Below are positions 478-43,991 of a stretch of DNA of 44,622 bases, in pieces. The DNA comes from Lachnospiraceae bacterium. Its GTDB lineage: Bacteria > Bacillota > Clostridia > Lachnospirales > Lachnospiraceae. Under the pieces are notes generated by a model. It worked only from the letters and a program-made list of their open reading frames with translations, was not told where the DNA came from and did no database searches. Made by a program: the position numbers and the translations under genes. The stretch covers positions 1 through 44,622 of the forward strand of contig JAEELW010000057.1 of the NCBI GenBank assembly GCA_016282915.1. The letters run 5' to 3'. Every line of letters starts with the position of its first letter. Within the stretch, counting starts at the first letter, position 1.

Positions 478-2055
478 CTAAAAACTCACATAATTCCTCG
501 GATCCTGTGCAACGCCGTTGATGCGGATCTCGAAATGCAGATGCGGTCCCGTACTGTTTCCGGTAGAGCCGGAAAGCGCCAGTGTCTGTCCCTGGTTCAC
601 ATACTGTCCGACGGAAACCAGTACGCGGCTTAAGTGTGCATAGCGGGTCTCCCAGCCGTCCGGATGCCGGATCGTGACCAGATAGCCGTAACCGCCGGCC
701 CAGCCCGCATGTGTGACCGTTCCCGCCGAGGCCGCCCAGATGGTCGTTCCGGTAGGTGTTGCGATATCCAGGCCCTGATGATTGGTGGAACCGATACCGC
801 CCGGCGAGCCTCTGCGTCCGAAGCCGGAGGAGATACGTCCGCCGGCCAGCGGCTTGATGTAGGTCGGCGGCACCTTGGTGCCCTTCTCCACCAGTTTGGC
901 CACAGCCTCCATCCCCACTTCCTCGTAGAGGACCTCGCTGCTCTCCACGTCCGTATTCTTCCGCGTGATCATGCTCACGGTCTCGTGATAGCCCGCGGAA
1001 GGCTGCCGGATCGTCTCGGCTTTGCTGGTGTACCAGTCGTCGTTGTAAATGTATTCGGTAGGCAGGTCGAAGACCTCATCCTTACGCGTGGTCTCGGTCC
1101 AGATCACGGAGAGCTCCGGTTCGGGCACCGTGATGACCAGCTCCTGTCCCACGCGTATGATGGAATTTTCACTTTCCAACGTATCGTTCAACGCGATGAT
1201 GCGGTCCAGGGGCAGCCCCACCTTCAGCGAAATGCCCGAAAGCGTATCGCCGCTCTGTACCTCATAGATCTGCTGCAGCTCCTGCAGTTCCGTCAGCCGG
1301 CTTCTGGCCGCCTCAAAATCAATGATATCCTCAGTCGGAAGATAGGCCTCCACGATCTCGATGGTCTCGGAAAAATGCATCTCCTTGATGCCGTAATCGT
1401 AGGAATCAAAACCGGTGGTGGCTTTGGAGAAATCCCAGTCATTTTCATCCGTCAGCGTTGCCGCACCGCCGAAGTCCAGAAGAGAGGACTCTTCTTCCTC
1501 CTCCTTTTTCCCCTGCACCACGGGAACAAGGACATTCAGTTCCCGGCTGCGGTCATTGACCAGCTCAACCTGAAAATCCCCGGATTCATCATAAACGGAA
1601 ATGGTCTCCTGAAAGATGTCGCGTACTTCTTCCGCCGAATTGACGTTGACCATGGTCTCGCCGACTTTGATGGAATAGGCTTTGGAGTATTCGGGCGTCG
1701 CATGGGCAGCGATCTGCTCCTTCATGCGTTCCTTGATATCGCTGCTCTCGTTGATCTCGCCGACCAGCAGCTCTTCCCCTTCGTATGTGAGCTCCGGCAT
1801 GGGGACAAAACTCATGCTGCCGCGTTCCTGCGCCAGCTCCCGGCGCGCTTCCCGGTACAGACTGCCCATCTGCTTCAGGTCCCCGATGACCCCCATCTCC
1901 ACGCCGTCCAGAAAGACCGTAAAGCGGTTCTCACCTTCTTCATGCCACCATTCGATCACGGGCATCAGGAAAATAAAAACAGCTGCGCATACGATGGCGG
2001 TACGTAGCACGGTCACCGTGCGCAGCTTTCTGTATTTTGATACTCTCTTGTGCAT
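478..2055 (-). CDS. Membrane-anchored LysM/G5/M23 peptidoglycan endopeptidase
   Basis: This 525-residue protein should sit in the membrane with its enzyme outside and cut cross-bridges or stem peptides in peptidoglycan. Residues about 17-36 form one hydrophobic anchor after a basic N-terminus. Residues about 40-260 match nothing I recognise. A LysM domain starts near residue 264 (YEVQSGDTLSGISLKVG), a G5-like segment follows at about 313-390, and an M23 (LytM/lysostaphin type) domain fills the C-terminus. The zinc ligands are visible: H426 and D430 in NHQGLDIA, and H507 in the HLHFEI motif, with H505 as the usual second catalytic histidine. All key residues are present, so it should be active rather than an EnvC-like activator. 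It lies 17 bp after the tail-anchored coiled-coil gene and 42 bp before the signalling gene. The order suggests a wall-remodelling or cell-shape operon, which is inference. Confidence 0.9.
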   Translation of the reverse strand: MHKRVSKYRKLRTVTVLRTAIVCAAVFIFLMPVIEWWHEEGENRFTVFLDGVEMGVIGDLKQMGSLYREARRELAQERGSMSFVPMPELTYEGEELLVGEINESSDIKERMKEQIAAHATPEYSKAYSIKVGETMVNVNSAEEVRDIFQETISVYDESGDFQVELVNDRSRELNVLVPVVQGKKEEEEESSLLDFGGAATLTDENDWDFSKATTGFDSYDYGIKEMHFSETIEIVEAYLPTEDIIDFEAARSRLTELQELQQIYEVQSGDTLSGISLKVGLPLDRIIALNDTLESENSIIRVGQELVITVPEPELSVIWTETTRKDEVFDLPTEYIYNDDWYTSKAETIRQPSAGYHETVSMITRKNTDVESSEVLYEEVGMEAVAKLVEKGTKVPPTYIKPLAGGRISSGFGRRGSPGGIGSTNHQGLDIATPTGTTIWAASAGTVTHAGWAGGYGYLVTIRHPDGWETRYAHLSRVLVSVGQYVNQGQTLALSGSTGNSTGPHLHFEIRINGVAQDPRNYVSF

Positions 2056-2072
2056 TTCTCTGCTGCTGTTCC

Positions 2073-4502
2073 TTACCAGGGGAAGATATGGAAGATATTC
2101 AGCACCGTAAGCGCCAGCAGCACCAGGGTAAAGATCAGGTCAATGATCACCAGCGCCTTGATCTTCCCTACCCGTGCTCCCACGGACTGGCTTACGCCTT
2201 CCACACTCTCCTTCTGTTTATCGTTCTTCTCGTTGATGACGGCCTGCACGTTCCGGTATACCTTTACGCTTTCCTTGTGCATAAAGTCTTCGACCGCCTT
2301 GAAACGTTCTTCCAGCGCCTGCTTCGTCTGCTCGTCTTTCTCGGCCTCGATTCTGGCCTTCTCCTCCTCGTCTGCCTTTGAAGGCATGTTCGCGTTGATC
2401 CGCTGCATGAACTGGACGATCTCTTTATTGTCCTGCTTCAGGCCATAGATCCCGCTGTCCACCGCAGCCTTCACCGTACTCTTGCTCTCGTCCGTACTCG
2501 TCTTCAGACTGCGGATATTCGTCGCGATCTCGGTCTGGCGGGAGATCAGGCTGGCCACGGACTGCTTCAGCTCCTCATTCACGGGTGCCGCTACGGGCTG
2601 TGCCGTACGCATCTCGGTGATCTCGGTCTTGGCCGCCTGCAGCACATTGTAGATCTCCTGCAATGCGTTCTTGCTCTCTTCCTGTCCGCCCAGAAGGCTT
2701 CCGATCCCTTCCGTCGTCTTGCCGGAAGCTTCCTGCAATGCACTGATGCTCTCGCTCACACTTCCGTTATCCTCTTTCAGCGCGCTGAGACGCTCCTGCG
2801 TAGCTCCGTTTTCCTCCTGCAGACGGTTCAGCGCCGCCACCAGTCCGGAAGTGAGTTCATCCGATTCCGGCTTTTCCTTAAGGCTTTCAACGGCTGCCTT
2901 CAGTTCGGAAACCGCCTCCAGCACACCCGCTTTCAGCTCCTCCTGATCGTCCTTCGTTCCAACGCGGCCGACAGCTTCCTTCAGCTCGTTCAGCGATTCC
3001 GTCACTCCTGCGGAAAGCTCTGCCTGATCGTCCTTTGTCCCGACTCGGCCGACGGCTTCCTTCAGTTCTTTCAGTGCTTCCGTTACTCCCGCGGAAAGCT
3101 CTGCCTGATCGTCCTTTGTCCCGACCCGGCCGACGGCTTCCTTCAGCTCGTTCAGTGCTTCCGTCACTCCTGCGGAAAGCTCTGCCTGATCGTCCTTTGT
3201 CCCGACCCGGCCGACGGCTTCCTTCAGCTCGTTCAGTTTATCCGTTACTTCCAGGGCAAATATTTCCTGGTCGTCCTTCGATGCTGCGCGGGCGACGGCT
3301 TCCTTCAGCTCATCCAGCGCTACCGTCATTCCCGCAGAAAGCTCTGCCTGTCCACCCTTTGCTTCCACACGCGCGAGCGCTTCTTTCAGCTCGGCCAGCT
3401 TTTCGTTCAGCTCCGAAGCAAACTCATCCTGATCAGCTTTCGTTCCGATACGGCCGACACTTTCCTTCAGCTCGTACAGTTTTTCCGACACATCCGAGGC
3501 AAGCTCGTCCTGCCCCGCATTCTCACCTATGCCGCTTACGGCAGATTTCAGCTCATTTAAGGAATCCTGGGTCTGCGCATTGGTCGTTGTGAGCGCGGAC
3601 AGGATCTCCTGCGTCAGACCGTCGATCTTGGACTGCTGCTTCAGTTCTTCCACCAGCGAACTGATCTGCTCACTGGTATTGCGCAGTTCATCCATCAGCT
3701 CCGGAGAGACCTCGGCCACGGGAGCTTCCCTCGTCACGCCCTCTTCCAGGCTCTGTCCCAGCCCCTGCACCCTGCTCAGGATCGTTGCAAGGCTTTCCTC
3801 CGCATTGGTGCCGTTCTGGCTGATCTCAAAGAGACGGTCGTTCAGGCTGTCCCCCTGTTCCCGGAGGACATCGGTCTGCTCGCGCAGACTGTCAAACTGC
3901 TCATGCAGCGCATTATTCTGTTCGCGCAGCTCTTCATTCTGCTCACGCAGGCTCTCGTTCTGTGCCTGCAGCAGTGTATTCTGCTCACGTATCCCTTCAA
4001 TGGCCTCTTTCAGGCCGTTCACACCGTCTTTCAGTTCTTCCACGCTGTTGCGCATGGTATCGGCCGAGCTCTGCACGGCTACCGCGGAATTGCGTACATC
4101 CTCGGTAGACTGACGCATCTCGTCCGTGGGCTGGCGGAGTATGTTCTGCATGGTCTCCGTCATGACATGCAGCATGCTCTCATCCATATTGCTGACGGCC
4201 TCTTCCATTGCACGGGTGACCGCATCCGTCATCTCTCTGGATACTTCCACCGTATTGGCACCGTCACGGGCCTCGATCTGAAGGGTGCGCACTTTTTCGA
4301 TGCTCTCGTCTACAAGTGCGTACATCTTCTCTGTCAATTCGGTATTCTTGTAGTTCAGCTTGCGCATCTCCTGCAGCACGGCCTCATAAGCCTCCACCTG
4401 CTCCTGCAGATTCTGCATCTGTGCGCTTTCGGCCTGCGAATTGGCGCGGATCATGTCCTGTGCGTTATACTTCTCCGCAAGTTTATCCATAAAATTATCC
4501 AT
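2073..4502 (-). CDS. Tail-anchored coiled-coil protein with nine 27-residue repeats
   Basis: I do not recognise a named family for this 809-residue protein. It has no signal peptide. Residues about 1-170 are helical and charged. A strongly heptad-like stretch at about 170-225 repeats LREQNEELREQN-type units. Residues 317-559 are nine tandem 27-residue units, most beginning ELKEAVGRVGTKDDQ and ending near SAGVTEALN. More predicted coiled coil follows, and a single hydrophobic segment at about 784-806 lies at the very C-terminus. It is therefore predicted to be anchored by its tail with a long cytoplasmic rod. ATG at 4502 has a clear AGGAGG ribosome site and a good promoter upstream. The gene is followed 17 bp later by the M23 peptidase, so a scaffold role for envelope work is plausible but unproven. 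Phage tape-measure or chemoreceptor-like proteins were considered; no supporting neighbours or domains are visible. Confidence 0.85.
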   Translation of the reverse strand: MDNFMDKLAEKYNAQDMIRANSQAESAQMQNLQEQVEAYEAVLQEMRKLNYKNTELTEKMYALVDESIEKVRTLQIEARDGANTVEVSREMTDAVTRAMEEAVSNMDESMLHVMTETMQNILRQPTDEMRQSTEDVRNSAVAVQSSADTMRNSVEELKDGVNGLKEAIEGIREQNTLLQAQNESLREQNEELREQNNALHEQFDSLREQTDVLREQGDSLNDRLFEISQNGTNAEESLATILSRVQGLGQSLEEGVTREAPVAEVSPELMDELRNTSEQISSLVEELKQQSKIDGLTQEILSALTTTNAQTQDSLNELKSAVSGIGENAGQDELASDVSEKLYELKESVGRIGTKADQDEFASELNEKLAELKEALARVEAKGGQAELSAGMTVALDELKEAVARAASKDDQEIFALEVTDKLNELKEAVGRVGTKDDQAELSAGVTEALNELKEAVGRVGTKDDQAELSAGVTEALKELKEAVGRVGTKDDQAELSAGVTESLNELKEAVGRVGTKDDQEELKAGVLEAVSELKAAVESLKEKPESDELTSGLVAALNRLQEENGATQERLSALKEDNGSVSESISALQEASGKTTEGIGSLLGGQEESKNALQEIYNVLQAAKTEITEMRTAQPVAAPVNEELKQSVASLISRQTEIATNIRSLKTSTDESKSTVKAAVDSGIYGLKQDNKEIVQFMQRINANMPSKADEEEKARIEAEKDEQTKQALEERFKAVEDFMHKESVKVYRNVQAVINEKNDKQKESVEGVSQSVGARVGKIKALVIIDLIFTLVLLALTVLNIFHIFPW
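2826..3554 (-). repeat. Nine in-frame 81-bp tandem repeats inside the coiled-coil gene
   Basis: Nine consecutive 81-bp units encode residues 317-559. Four consecutive units (about 2907-3230) are almost identical in protein and very close in DNA, while the outer units have drifted. This pattern suggests recent copy-number change in the middle of the array by recombination or slippage. Period and frame are conserved throughout, so the array is protein-coding and not a CRISPR or satellite. Confidence 0.9.
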
Positions 4503-37662: not shown

Positions 37663-38178
37663 TCAGCCGCTCCCCGGAACAGCTTCTCCTCCCGGAAACT
37701 CCTTCGCAAAACGCCCGCTGCGCTCCATCCCCGGAAAATCCAGCTGACGCAGCGCCTCGTAGAGCACGATGTTCACCGAGTTTGCAAGGTTCAGCGAACG
37801 TGTCCCCGGAAGCATCGGGATACGTATGCAGAATTCTTCATTCTCCTTCAGGATCTCTTCGGGGATGCCTCCGCTTTCTTTTCCGAACATGATGAAATCG
37901 TCCGGCGCGAAATCCGCTTCGGTATATACCCGCCGTGCTTTTGTACTGGCCATCCAGATCCTGGCCCCGGGGTGCGCGGAAAGGAATTCCGCGTAATTGA
38001 TATACCGCCGGTAGTCTACCCGCTCCCAGTAATCCATGCCGGAACGCTTCACGGCGTATTCCGAGAGCTTAAAGCCCAGCGGTTCGATCAGATGCAGCTT
38101 TGTTCCGGTCGCCGCGCAGGTCCGGCCGATATTGCCCGTATTGGACGGGATCTCCGGCTGGTGGAGTACGATGTTCAT
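37663..38178 (-). CDS. trmL: TrmL, tRNA (cytidine/uridine-34 2'-O)-methyltransferase
   Basis: TrmL methylates the wobble ribose of leucine tRNAs using S-adenosylmethionine. The 171-residue SPOUT protein has motif 1 EIPSNTGNIGRTCAATG, motif 2 IMFGKESGGIPEEIL and the C-terminal knot motif IPMLPGTRSLNLANSVNIVL, all intact. The ATG overlaps the end of the channel gene by 4 bp with GAGGGAG upstream. Its place beside a translation-associated GTPase-nuclease may reflect a shared translation theme. Confidence 0.95.
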   Translation of the reverse strand: MNIVLHQPEIPSNTGNIGRTCAATGTKLHLIEPLGFKLSEYAVKRSGMDYWERVDYRRYINYAEFLSAHPGARIWMASTKARRVYTEADFAPDDFIMFGKESGGIPEEILKENEEFCIRIPMLPGTRSLNLANSVNIVLYEALRQLDFPGMERSGRFAKEFPGGEAVPGSG

Positions 38179-39410: not shown

Positions 39411-41141
39411 CTACTGATCCTCTCCCGTCAGCATCGCATAAGTCACACCGTATTTGATCGCGATATCTTCCGCATAGGAGCGCCCTTCCGGCGCCGCCAG
39501 CCGGAGCTTGAAGGACCGTTCACCGTCCCGGGTCTCCGCCACCAGCGAGGCGGCTTTTGCACCGTCCGACTCCGCATTGATCTCGCCGATCTCCATTGCA
39601 AGCTTGTGCATATGCGTATTGTAGATCGTCCGCATGCCGCGCTTCAGGATCGCCTTCACGGCGTCGCGCGCGATATAATATCCCTCCTCAAAAGAGGTCG
39701 TTGAAAATGTCTCGTTCAAAAGCAGCAGGCTCTTTCCGCTGCCCGCCCCGTAGATCTCCTTGAAACGGCTGCACTCTTCACCGAGCCGCCCCAGATCCAT
39801 GGTACTGTCTTCATCTGCCGGGTAATGGGTATAGATGCAGTCTGCCGGCTGAAAAGCAAAAGACTCTCCGGGCACGCAGATCCCTCCCTGCCCCAGCACA
39901 AAGAGCTGTCCCACCGCCTGCGTGATCGTTGTCTTTCCGCCACGGTTCGCTCCCGTCAGGATGTAACAGGTATGCTCCTTATCAAAGACCAGATCGTTGG
40001 GAACGATCGCGGAAGGCTCCAGCTCGCCGGCCACCGCAAGCTTCAGGTTGTATACGCCTTTCGCCCGCATGCGCAGATCCCCGGACTCTTCCGGGACCTC
40101 CGGCGTACAGAATGTATAGCCGCGCTCCTTCAGTTTCTCCATGAACTCCGCCCAGCGGATGTAATACATGAATTCCGGGATGAGCCCCACGATACTGCCG
40201 ATGCTGAAATTCACATATTTGCTCAGCCCCTGCTCCAGCCTTCTGGTGATCAGGCTCAGCATGCTGCTGATCTCACGGTCAAAGAAATGCGTCACATAAC
40301 GCGAGCTGTCCTTCTCCGGCGTGGCCGCAAGCGTCCTTCCTATGAGCGGGAGCATCAGCGGATTCCGCTCTGCCGCGAAAACAGCGCCGATCCTTCCGAG
40401 TTCCCCGGTAAAATCCGCGGAACTGTTCGTGACCGGGTGAAAGCGCATACTCCCGTTCCACTTGTTTCCGTCCCGTATCCCTTCTTTTGTCGCCAGCGCT
40501 TCGGAGAAATTATTCAGAATGCCCGAGCTCTTGAATTCCTTATTGTTCACCGAGATCAGGCCGATACTGTCCACTTCGAAATTCCGGTTCAGATTGACGC
40601 CGATGGTCACGCTGCGAAGGTTCTTGACATCCGCCTTCAGCGCCCCGATATCCATTTTGAGCTCTTCAAAAAGAGACTCTTCATGCACTTCCTGGACATA
40701 AGCGCGCAGCGCCTTCAATCCGTCCGAATGCACATCGGCATCGTCCAGGCAGTCACGGATCTGCTCCACACTTTTGATGTAATCATCCAGCTCGCTCAGA
40801 CGGTGCAGAAGTTCCCACAGCCCCACGCGCATATCATGGTCTTTTTTGAAACTCCCGTAATCGTTCAGAAACTGCACATGATCCAGCAGTTCCATCATGC
40901 GCGAACGCATCTTCGGCTGGGCCACGATATCACGGAACACGCCGGCACGATACCTTGCGGTCTCCGGATCCGCGGTCATCGTCTTCATGATCGAGGCGAT
41001 CACGGTACGCTCATTCACCTTCCCGGTGAGCTTTTCGCATATCGTATCCATTCCCAGATCGTGCCAGGCAGTATCCGAAATGACCCTGCTCTCCTGCAGC
41101 TCGCCTTCCGGAAAGAGGATACTGATCATTTTCTTCGCCAT
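39411..41141 (-). CDS. MutS-like ATPase lacking mismatch-recognition domain
   Basis: The 576-residue protein has only the lever/core (domain III-like, about 60-380) and ATPase (domain V) parts of MutS. The mismatch-binding domain I, the connector and the MutS2 Smr nuclease are absent. Walker A is GANRGGKTT (397-405). The Walker B motif reads LLLLNETFSTTS, with asparagine (N476) where MutS proteins have aspartate and the glutamate (E477) retained. Such short MutS-like proteins are widespread in Firmicutes with unknown roles. It is not expected to do standard mismatch repair. ATG has GGAGG 4 bases upstream, and the gene has its own promoter inside the end of the preceding gene. Confidence 0.85.
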   Translation of the reverse strand: MAKKMISILFPEGELQESRVISDTAWHDLGMDTICEKLTGKVNERTVIASIMKTMTADPETARYRAGVFRDIVAQPKMRSRMMELLDHVQFLNDYGSFKKDHDMRVGLWELLHRLSELDDYIKSVEQIRDCLDDADVHSDGLKALRAYVQEVHEESLFEELKMDIGALKADVKNLRSVTIGVNLNRNFEVDSIGLISVNNKEFKSSGILNNFSEALATKEGIRDGNKWNGSMRFHPVTNSSADFTGELGRIGAVFAAERNPLMLPLIGRTLAATPEKDSSRYVTHFFDREISSMLSLITRRLEQGLSKYVNFSIGSIVGLIPEFMYYIRWAEFMEKLKERGYTFCTPEVPEESGDLRMRAKGVYNLKLAVAGELEPSAIVPNDLVFDKEHTCYILTGANRGGKTTITQAVGQLFVLGQGGICVPGESFAFQPADCIYTHYPADEDSTMDLGRLGEECSRFKEIYGAGSGKSLLLLNETFSTTSFEEGYYIARDAVKAILKRGMRTIYNTHMHKLAMEIGEINAESDGAKAASLVAETRDGERSFKLRLAAPEGRSYAEDIAIKYGVTYAMLTGEDQ

Positions 41142-41184: not shown

Positions 41185-41205
41185 ATTTCTGCCTGTCAGG
41201 GTCAA
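41177..41205 (-). promoter_or_regulatory. Promoter of the MutS-like/channel/trmL/DUF6472/galE run
   Basis: On the minus strand TTGACC is 17 bp from TATTAT, 36 bp before the ATG at 41141. It overlaps the last codons of the GTPase-NYN gene. Confidence 0.7.
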
Positions 41206-43874
41206 ATGCGTTTTGCCCCCCGCCCGTATGCGCTGAGCAGCTTCTCTCTTTCTTCCGAGACCCGCTGCTCCAGTTCCCTGGCGGACATGCGCCGGCAGCT
41301 GTTCCCCCAGGCCACGGTCTGCTCCAGACGGTCCGAGGTGGCCACGGTAATGTCAAACTTCTTTCCGTTTTCCGCCGCAAAGCGCTCGATGTACTGGTCC
41401 GCAGTCTGCCCTTCCCCGGTATAGACCAGCTGCAGGTTCGGAAGCGACTGCTTCGAACTGCTGCGTCCTTTGATCCGGTAGGCGTCAAACACGAGCAGCA
41501 CTTCAAAATCCTGCGTCCCCTGGAAATCCGACAGGATATCGATCAGCTTATCCCTGGCGCTGTCCATGTTTTCCGCAGCAAGTTCCTTCAGCTCCTTCCA
41601 GGCAAAGACCATGTTGTAGCCGTCCACGACCAGGTACTGTTTTTTCCTCTCCTGCGGCGAAAAGCGGTAAGCGGCGTAGGCTTCGTCAAAATCATATTCC
41701 TTCGGAACGCCCCGTCCGTTCTTCCACACGCCCAGGCCCTTCCGCTTTTCATGCTCGGCCTGCACATTGGAATCGCTGTTGGAATAAAACGTCCGGTTCA
41801 GGATCGCATCCACTTCATCCGTACCGATCGCCTTCATTTCCCCGCCGCCGGCCTGCTGCTGCCTGGCGCGAAAGACCTGCGCATCGCTTTCCTTCCGTTC
41901 ATTTTTGTCCGAAAAAGCGTGGTACGCGCTCTCCAGATGCATATAGTCCCACACTTCGTTCCACGGGACCACAAAGCCCGCCCCATGGGCGCAGAAGACG
42001 GAATCCGGAGTGTTCCTGAGATCCGCTTCCGGCAGATAGGCCGTTTTTTCGATCACCTCTTCCGCATTGTGACAGGGTCCGTAGGACGACAGCTCCAGAG
42101 AGATCTGCCCCATGCCGCCGGTATAGGCTGCCAGATCCTTTGCATAATTCTGTATGCAGCTGACCGGCGCCGTGCCCGTGAGCATCGCCCTCTCCCCGAG
42201 GATCTCCGGTGCTTCCACTTTTCCATGCATGTTCTCCACATCGGTCATGGCCCGTCCCACATTTTCCACCGGCAGTTCGATGCGGAAGAAATAATACGGT
42301 TCCAGAAGGATGCTCTCTGCCTGCATGAGACCCTGGCGCACCGCCCGGTAAGTCGCCTGCCGGAAATCACCGCCCTCCGTATGCTTCGGATGCGCGCGCC
42401 CCGTAAGGATGCGGATCTTCATATCCGTGAGCGGACTCCCCGTGAGTACGCCCCTGTGCGTCTTTTCCCGCAGGTGTGTGAGGATCAGCCGCTGCCAGTT
42501 CCGCTCCAGTATATCCTCGCTGCAGAGCGAATCAAAACTCAGGCCGCTGCCATTCTCATCCGGCTCAAGGAGCAGATGGACTTCCGCATAATGCCGGAGC
42601 GGTTCGAAATGTCCGACGCCCTCCACCGGCGCCGCAATGGTTTCCTTATAAACGACCGTACCTTCACCGAAGCGTACCGCGATACCGAAACGGTCCTTCA
42701 ATGTCCGCTTCAGCACCTCCAGCTGCACTTCTCCCATCACACGGAGGCGTATCCCCGCGCGCCCGCGGCCGCTTCGTGCAGCCCCCGGATCTTCGTCTTC
42801 GGAAAAAACACGAAGCTGCGGATCCTCTTCTTCGAGGACCCGCAGCTTTGCGAGCAATACCGTATCATCTGTTCCGTCTTCCGCATATACGCGGTAACTG
42901 AGCACCGGCTCCAAAAGGACGGGGTTGCTTCCCTTCAGGGCACCGAGCCCCATACCCGCGCTGCTTAAGTTCAGCCCGGTAACGGCGCAGATCCTGCCGG
43001 CCTTCAGTTCCGTTACTGTCTCATATTTTTCCCCGGAATAGATGCGGATCTGATTGACCTTTTCTTCCCCGATCACGTCGCGGCTGCGCAATACGCCGCC
43101 CAGGATCTTTAGATGCGTCAGGCGGTTTCCCGCGGCGTCGCGGCTGATCTTGAAGACCCTGGCCGCAAATTCCCCGCCGTACTGCGGCTCCGTCGAAAAC
43201 TCCGTCAGAGCCCGCAAAAGGAGTTCGATCCCTTCCATCTTCAGCGCCGAGCCGAAGAATACGGGAAAGAGTCTGCGCCGCTCCACAAGCCCGGCAATGC
43301 AGGCACTGTCAATGCGCGCTTCTCCTCCCAGATAAGCTTCCATCAGGCTCTCATCGCAGAGCGCGACCGCTTCCTCATCTTCTTCCGACAGCCCCGAAAA
43401 AGCCCTCGAAAGATCCAGGCAGTTTGCGTGGAGGCGCTTCTGAAGTTCCGCAAGCACCTTTTCTCCATCCGCTCCCGGCTGGTCCATCTTGTTCACAAAG
43501 ATCATCACCGGGATCCCATACTGCTGCAGCAGGGACCAGAGGGTCAGCGTATGTCCTTTCACGCCGTCGGCCGCGCTCACGAGAAGGATGCACAGATCCA
43601 GTACCTGCAGCACGCTTTCCGCCTCTGCCGAAAAATCCACGTGTCCCGGCGTATCCAGAAGGGTGATCCCGATATCTCCGTAACTGAGCTCCGCCTGCTT
43701 GGAATAGATCGTGATACCACGCTCGCGCTCCTGCACATCCGTATCCAGAAAACTGTCCCGGGTATCGACCCGCCCCGCTTTCCGCAAAACCCCTGCCTTA
43801 TACAGCAATGCTTCGGTCAGCGTTGTTTTCCCGGCATCCACATGCGCGAGTATGCCCAGATTGATATGTTTCAC
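41202..43874 (-). CDS. TetM-like translational GTPase fused to a NYN/Rae1-type ribonuclease domain
   Basis: The 890-residue protein starts at GTG 43874 (MKHINLGILAHVDAGKTT), with GGGAG 5 bases upstream; an ATG four codons earlier has no good site. Residues about 1-650 follow the EF-G/TetM order: G1 AHVDAGKTT, G2 region with RERGITI, G3 DTPGHVDF, G4 NKMD, then domains II-V. Residues about 745-870 form a NYN (YacP/Rae1) domain with acidic residues D751 (VVDGYNM), D797 (VFDAYR), D826 (TADQYIER) and D848 (TSDRLEQ). They are joined by a charged linker (about 650-740). TetM-type proteins bind the ribosomal A site. Bacillus Rae1 cuts mRNA there. A combined ribosome-quality-control role is inferred. 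Tetracycline protection cannot be excluded, but divergence and chromosomal housekeeping context argue against it. Confidence 0.88.
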   Translation of the reverse strand: MKHINLGILAHVDAGKTTLTEALLYKAGVLRKAGRVDTRDSFLDTDVQERERGITIYSKQAELSYGDIGITLLDTPGHVDFSAEAESVLQVLDLCILLVSAADGVKGHTLTLWSLLQQYGIPVMIFVNKMDQPGADGEKVLAELQKRLHANCLDLSRAFSGLSEEDEEAVALCDESLMEAYLGGEARIDSACIAGLVERRRLFPVFFGSALKMEGIELLLRALTEFSTEPQYGGEFAARVFKISRDAAGNRLTHLKILGGVLRSRDVIGEEKVNQIRIYSGEKYETVTELKAGRICAVTGLNLSSAGMGLGALKGSNPVLLEPVLSYRVYAEDGTDDTVLLAKLRVLEEEDPQLRVFSEDEDPGAARSGRGRAGIRLRVMGEVQLEVLKRTLKDRFGIAVRFGEGTVVYKETIAAPVEGVGHFEPLRHYAEVHLLLEPDENGSGLSFDSLCSEDILERNWQRLILTHLREKTHRGVLTGSPLTDMKIRILTGRAHPKHTEGGDFRQATYRAVRQGLMQAESILLEPYYFFRIELPVENVGRAMTDVENMHGKVEAPEILGERAMLTGTAPVSCIQNYAKDLAAYTGGMGQISLELSSYGPCHNAEEVIEKTAYLPEADLRNTPDSVFCAHGAGFVVPWNEVWDYMHLESAYHAFSDKNERKESDAQVFRARQQQAGGGEMKAIGTDEVDAILNRTFYSNSDSNVQAEHEKRKGLGVWKNGRGVPKEYDFDEAYAAYRFSPQERKKQYLVVDGYNMVFAWKELKELAAENMDSARDKLIDILSDFQGTQDFEVLLVFDAYRIKGRSSSKQSLPNLQLVYTGEGQTADQYIERFAAENGKKFDITVATSDRLEQTVAWGNSCRRMSARELEQRVSEEREKLLSAYGRGAKRI

Positions 43875-43962
43875 CGTTTCTCCCATTCACGATCCCCGCC
43901 GGAACGATGCTCCGTCCCTGATACGATCCTGCCACCGTACGCCCGGCCTCTCCATGTGACAG

Positions 43963-43991
43963 ATGATAAACCTTCCGTATGGGCCAGTCAA
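43963..43991 (-). promoter_or_regulatory. Promoter of the GTPase-NYN gene
   Basis: On the minus strand TTGACT is 17 bp from TATCAT, leaving a leader of about 80 bases before the GTG at 43874. No TetM-type leader peptide or T-rich attenuator is visible in it. Confidence 0.65.

Follow-up and report, generated by a model that had tools for sequence, protein, structure and literature searches.

Rae1 (YacP) of Bacillus subtilis is a separate protein, reported as an mRNA endonuclease acting in the ribosomal A site (PMC6613710, PMC12320835), and its gene shares a transcript with yacO, an rlmB homologue (PMC6613710). Tet proteins bind a ribosomal site overlapping those of EF-G and of the A-site drug, and in TetM, Pro-509 lies against C1054 within the drug site (PMC8161019). 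Both parts meet in the proteins of Atkinson 2015 (PMC4342817), according to which a YacP-like NYN domain was acquired by Tet proteins in ten species of Clostridiales; resistance via RNase activity was suggested there, with its test listed as future work. Beyond Atkinson 2015, the open-licence literature yielded no description or test of such a fusion; Condon 2018, on the distribution of Rae1, could well mention it. We analysed a 44,622-nt stretch of DNA from a Lachnospiraceae bacterium (contig JAEELW010000057.1 of assembly GCA_016282915.1; the window in the following), in which one gene of 894 amino acids (aa) on the minus strand (41202..43886) combines the same two parts, i.e., a Tet/EF-G-like GTPase and a YacP-like NYN nuclease. 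We liken the window protein to the ten published ones, likewise from Clostridiales, by architecture.

With a probability of about 0.5, we consider this fusion to be the organism's Rae1, that is, a housekeeping ribosome-directed mRNA endonuclease that would be carried by its own translational GTPase. A role in ribosome surveillance with cutting in the A site is plausible by homology to Rae1. In the genomes sampled, the fusion is the usual form of the Rae1-like enzyme in the window's bacterial family. While Atkinson 2015 files such fusions as Tet, we find a separate GTPase subfamily, which is fused in 66 of the 80 family genomes, with the fusion replacing the separate yacP gene. The architecture is already published; new are the sister GTPase subfamily, the mutual exclusion of fused and separate nuclease, the absence of yacP after rlmB in four fusion genomes and a history that fits a single fusion.

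The family sample comprised 80 genomes (G000-G078 and G335), drawn from 397 and searched with a GTPase profile (alignment A2) and PF05991; in the larger set of 397 an NYN is found in 352, and this set is not the basis of the fused counts. Fused and separate forms were told apart by frame length and position, not by reading each protein. On these terms, 66 genomes carry the fusion, one (G042) a frame-split fusion, eight a separate NYN and five neither. A separate GTPase of the fusion subfamily is present in four of the eight genomes with separate NYN. An earlier note on this DNA, made from the sequence alone, had called the architecture uncommon, which these counts contradict, and the architecture has been in print since 2015. 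The same note proposed checking for a separate yacP/rae1 gene; none was found in the window genome, where the fusion is the only NYN_YacP match. Nor did any fused genome of the family sample yield a second full-length NYN. The fragments encountered are a 139-aa piece at a contig edge in G039 (5% contamination) and a 56-aa piece below the cut-off in G076. That is, fused and separate nuclease are mutually exclusive save one contig-edge fragment.

A similar partition, judged on the same terms, is seen among the 156 genomes of the class, of which 104 have an NYN (56 fused, 47 separate, 1 ambiguous) and 52 have none. The fused frames, from 20 family groups, are at least 734 aa long, the separate ones 168-216 aa and the unclear one 351 aa. 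The genomes with an NYN hold one apiece, except for a match of 21.3 bits, below the cut-off, in G513. The GTPase alone was found in 3 of the 20 NYN-less class genomes that were searched (out of 52). At the phylum level (199 genomes), a GTPase match at E ≤1e-150 occurs in 13 genomes, and in 12 of these the frame measures at least 857 aa. The fusion is not uncommon within family and class, and it is a minority in the phylum sample. The replacement also shows at the site of the separate gene: of three genomes with a separate yacP, G455 and G024 have it adjoining rlmB. In the fusion genomes G127 and G102 a sigma-factor gene follows rlmB with no yacP between, and the gene after rlmB is of the CNNM/CBS/CorC type in the window genome (G000) and in G335, also a fusion genome, again with no yacP there.

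The gene itself shows no internal stop in its 894-codon frame, and all six domains of the protein exceed their Pfam gathering scores (all features of the gene lie on the minus strand; residues are numbered from the ATG). An in-frame GTG at 43874, four codons after the ATG and with GGGAG just 5' of it, is a plausible alternative start codon. The earlier note's residue numbers D751, D797, D826 and D848 are correct in the GTG-start frame and correspond to D755, D801, D830 and D852 here. The G domain (GTP_EFTU, residues 6-230, 43197..43871) holds the motifs AHVDAGKTT (G1), RGITI (G2), DTPGHV (G3) and VNKMD (G4). It is followed by EF-G domains II (EF-G_D2, residues 240-311, 42954..43169; 27.1 bits with a cut-off of 27), III (EFG_III, residues 326-407, 42666..42911), IV (EFG_IV, residues 409-523, 42318..42662) and V (EFG_C, residues 527-607, 42066..42308). 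The alignments add a subfamily-specific C-terminal Cys/His tail (CHN ... SVFCAHG ... MH, residues 605-651, 41934..42074), after which a linker of about 93 residues (656-748, 41643..41921) leads to the NYN_YacP (Rae1-type) nuclease (residues 752-884, 41235..41633). Linkers of 16 related fusions span 65-152 aa. The AlphaFold2 model of the fusion (18 sequences) has a mean predicted local distance difference test score (pLDDT) of 77.0 and a predicted template modelling score (pTM) of 0.55; the linker, mostly below pLDDT 50, separates two better-modelled parts, and G-domain residues 38-62 are of low confidence as well.

Both domains share one frame in 16 of 17 aligned relatives, the remaining one being a GTPase-only copy (the row of L041 in alignments A1 and A2 begins within its gene). 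For pairs of fused genes, the ratio of nonsynonymous to synonymous substitution rates (dN/dS) is 0.06-0.12 for the GTPase and 0.03-0.19 for the NYN (9 of 11 pairs each with computable dS), while the dN of the linker is the highest of the fusion's parts in 11/11 pairs. Judged by these ratios, both halves are under purifying selection. A frameshift or assembly join between the halves, which the earlier note had raised against its own reading, is ruled out by the stop-free frame, the 16/17 fused relatives and the selection on both halves. Its other worry, absence of the fusion in relatives, did not come true either, given the aligned relatives and the family counts.

The NYN half is clearly recognised. 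It reaches 147.4 bits for PF05991 (gathering cut-off 24.6) and aligns with chain residues 3-130 of B. subtilis YacP (5mq8/5mq9; E 2.8e-24). Pfam and these structure matches thus bear out what had been read from the letters, i.e., one uninterrupted frame with EF-G/TetM-type motifs and an NYN with four acidic residues. The acidic residues D755 (41622..41624), D801 (41484..41486), D830 (41397..41399) and D852 (41331..41333) are, together with E834, kept in 93/93 fused and 20/20 separate NYNs. The count for D755 is biased, as a motif containing it served in part to choose the 93 fused NYNs; D801, D830 and D852 played no part in that choice.

The GTPase half displays the complete set of EF-G/Tet superfamily features, i.e., the GTPase motifs and EF-G domains I-V. 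Its likeness to Tet(M)/Tet(O) lies in the EF-G domain layout, the G motifs, about 30% identity and the length of the GTPase part, and TetO and TetM are its best sequence matches among solved structures. As a description, the earlier note's "TetM-like" is thus fair; as a claim of a drug-displacing Tet GTPase it is not supported, since the curated cut-off is missed and the tip residues differ. For NCBIfam NF012153 (tet_protect), the window protein scores 391.4 bits with a cut-off of 775. The values for ten other members of the subfamily, both fused and stand-alone, are 385.7-449.6 bits, such that 11/11 are below the cut-off, while four of six Tet-like controls from the same searches pass at 853-1001 and two (606 and 561) fail. 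Beside the score, the fusion differs from Tet(M)/Tet(O) by the extra Cys/His tail and the added NYN.

This difference also manifests in the tip loop of domain IV (GRAHPKHTEGGDFR, residues 496-509, 42360..42401), which reads AHxKHTEGGDFR in the fusion subfamily compared to YYSPVSTPADFR in Tet(M)/Tet(O). H499, K501 and H502 are invariant in 19/19 rows of alignment A2. Pro-509 of TetM aligns with the lysine K501, and the TetM Tyr near it with an invariant histidine that is itself aligned with the EF-G tip histidine. Histidine also occupies this position in both Tet-like proteins that fall short of the NF012153 cut-off.

The tip histidine and the fold (best Foldseek match of the model, E 4.1e-55) relate the GTPase to EF-G. 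On the other hand, it scores 296.6 bits for the EF-G model TIGR00484 (cut-off 659.4), and EF-G forms a separate clade (support 100). A further Foldseek fold match, with 20% identity, is Bacteroides EF-G2 (PDB 8dmf), an EF-G paralogue with an auxiliary role in translation, for which the available passages of PMC6989115 name no nuclease. In trees of 78 and 83 sequences, which omit 6 of 56 fused loci (GTPase end motif not located), EF-G, Tet and the fusion GTPase subfamily are each separate; the six Tet-like rows form one clade (support 95) and the fusion subfamily another (Shimodaira-Hasegawa-like approximate likelihood ratio test, SH-aLRT, 99). By the tests run, the fusion GTPase is a sister subfamily and not a Tet protein.

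Within the subfamily, 12 stand-alone GTPases group together in a clade (support 99), next to which stands a second one with 54 fused rows (SH-aLRT 95). Three NYN-less GTPases are nested in the fused clade, namely that of locus L035 from a Lachnospiraceae metagenome-assembled genome and a pair from Bifidobacterium simiarum and an L. salivarius plasmid. A tree that holds the fused rows apart from them is rejected by the approximately unbiased test (p-AU 3.8e-6). Given the nesting and this rejection, the nuclease would have joined before the NYN-less branches arose and then been lost at least twice. In the NYN tree with all 20 separate NYNs, a single fused clade is not rejected (p-AU 0.908); the free tree needed two changes, and keeping the fused rows together gave the tree of higher likelihood. 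These trees fit one fusion event followed by two or more losses of the nuclease. In L035, the GTPase gene (1079-3034) ends two codons past the conserved Met-His, close to the end of stand-alone members, which terminate at the Cys/His tail or within about 12 codons of it. Phosphatase and channel genes still flank it, with the nuclease and the MutS-like gene missing between.

How the two halves might act together can be sketched as follows. On a paused ribosome, the GTP-bound protein would occupy the factor site and place its domain IV in the A site. Hydrolysis of GTP and departure of the GTPase, perhaps accompanied by a translocation-like shift, would vacate the A site, and the tethered nuclease, at high local concentration, could then cleave the mRNA there and leave a truncated message for ribosome rescue. 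With a tether of about 93 residues, the nuclease could get to the A site once the GTPase leaves, and the fusion would raise nuclease access to slow ribosomes. A bolder version holds that the protein is a GTP-driven A-site cutter, whose GTPase would open the A site of the paused ribosome by a translocation-like movement or a back-step with its EF-G-type tip and hand the codon to the tethered nuclease, such that hydrolysis gates cleavage. It would then be the main Rae1 form in a large family, mislabelled as tetracycline resistance in some records. We put this version forward tentatively, as a possibility with the odds against it. The available passages on Rae1 are silent on how it reaches or chooses ribosomes; the natural fusion points to a recruiter and offers a single testable protein.

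Several observations weigh against the fusion being the organism's Rae1 with a coupled GTPase. Domain IV and the nuclease cannot fill the A site together, so sequential action must be assumed, and the model does not fix the relative placement of the two halves (pTM 0.55). The GTPase is kept without an NYN match in the genomes of L035 and B. simiarum, and it stands alone on the L. salivarius plasmids (chromosome not searched for NYN). It is found in only 4 of the 47 class genomes with separate NYN, one of these a partial match. As either half can be found on its own in other genomes, the fusion is not obligatory. G004, which is 100% complete and belongs to the window genome's genus, has neither a GTPase nor an NYN_YacP match. 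Separate yacP and rlmB lie on different contigs in G059, so the yacP site beside rlmB is not universal. Compared to B. subtilis Rae1, finally, the attached NYN has a shorter C-terminus. It counts 144 aa from the motif start versus a minimum of 166 in the 20 separate NYNs, i.e., about 22 residues less, and its PF05991 match ends at profile position 135 of 166, short of the full-length domain. R166 of B. subtilis Rae1, for which R166P is a loss-of-function suppressor allele (PMC6613710), would fall into the part that is missing. As 76/93 fused NYNs exceed 150 aa and 17/93 do not, most fusions do not share the short form. Tight coupling is called into question most by the occurrence of either half on its own and by this short C-terminus.

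The same observations feed the alternative of a fusion without coupling, in which the GTPase does an auxiliary EF-G-like step of its own and the NYN acts as an ordinary Rae1. The retention of the GTPase after NYN loss in L035 and the Bifidobacterium/L. salivarius branch, the 43/47 class genomes whose separate Rae1 goes without a fusion-type GTPase and the fast-changing, poorly modelled linker all speak for it. Yet the fusion is kept in the large majority of family genomes and across the class's 20 family groups, with one split in 80, and it replaced the separate yacP gene one-for-one; we regard independence of the halves as unlikely, though as an alternative to be taken seriously. A different target is conceivable as well: the nuclease could cut rRNA or tRNA in ribosome maturation or quality control, with the GTPase as ribosome anchor. 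This would agree with what had earlier been proposed for NYN domains (cited by Atkinson 2015, PMC4342817) and with the place of separate yacP next to rlmB, an rRNA methylase gene, in G455 and G024, but it runs against the reports of B. subtilis Rae1 as an A-site mRNA endonuclease (PMC6613710, PMC12320835) and appears improbable to us.

We give equally little credit to the suggestion of Atkinson 2015 that a Tet-type ribosomal protection protein with an RNase forms an antibiotic-resistance factor. It can draw on TetO and TetM as nearest solved relatives by sequence, on tet_protect as the best NCBIfam model and on records that name members as TetM/TetW/TetO/TetS family. Against this stand the scores of all 11 members tested (386-450 bits) far below a cut-off that most Tet-like controls pass, the invariant lysine in place of the drug-site Pro-509 of TetM and the separate clade of the Tet-like rows. 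Furthermore, the fusion is widely spread on chromosomes, and in 8 of the 80 family genomes it occurs alongside Tet-level matches (387-410 bits, 643-644 aa). A housekeeping nuclease rather than drug resistance is most likely. The gene, found in most sampled Lachnospiraceae genera, is nevertheless labelled tetracycline resistance in some records despite failing the curated cut-off, and such labels could inflate resistance-gene counts.

A phage origin was considered too. PHROG 6880 matches the GTPase part, and the fusion is carried on two records labelled Bacteriophage sp. (MT835514.1, L236, marked UNVERIFIED, and MT835563.1). PADLOC gave no match, and the IMG/VR scan found no fusion, its hits being two GTPase-only matches that start at contig base 1 and one distant GTPase (27% identity). 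The phage-gene reading was rejected, and the two records are likely host DNA.

The gene neighbourhood adds little to the translation theme that the earlier note had seen in an own promoter and a neighbouring trmL. The promoter comes down to one weak 10/12 consensus match upstream of the gene (TTGACT-17-TATCAT, 43963..43991, minus strand), in a 3-kb stretch with 3 such matches where 1.0 is expected. The trmL-like gene (37663-38178) is the third gene downstream of the fusion and scores 172.5 bits with an NCBIfam cut-off of 190.6. We compared 18 related loci (16 fused, 2 GTPase-only) with flanks of at most 5 kb on each side, less in several. Within these flanks trmL and the MutS-like gene occur in 0/18 loci, the phosphatase gene is common to two (L034, L035) and the channel gene to one (L035). 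Within these flanks, the reading as a translation-themed operon was rejected. The MutS-like gene (39411-41141, minus strand) encodes a MutS domain V ATPase of 576 aa, begins 60 bp downstream of the fusion and shows weak likeness to KamC and MutS2, below the NCBIfam cut-offs.

Two parts of the GTPase coding region deserve a brief remark. At 42813-42848 (minus strand), there is a GC-rich terminator-like hairpin of 15 pairs with a T-run; an internal terminator was discarded, as a matching stem and T-run were not seen in the five near relatives examined. In the Cys/His tail, residues C605, H606, C632, H634 and H650 have no aligned counterpart in the six Tet-like and eight EF-G rows, and the tail is a possible metal or rRNA contact. 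The GTPase gene of an L. salivarius plasmid (L215, 4532-6923) adjoins a gene annotated rpsN (S14) and lies near a "putative metal homeostasis protein"; given the conserved Cys/His in the tail, a zinc link is conceivable for this plasmid GTPase.

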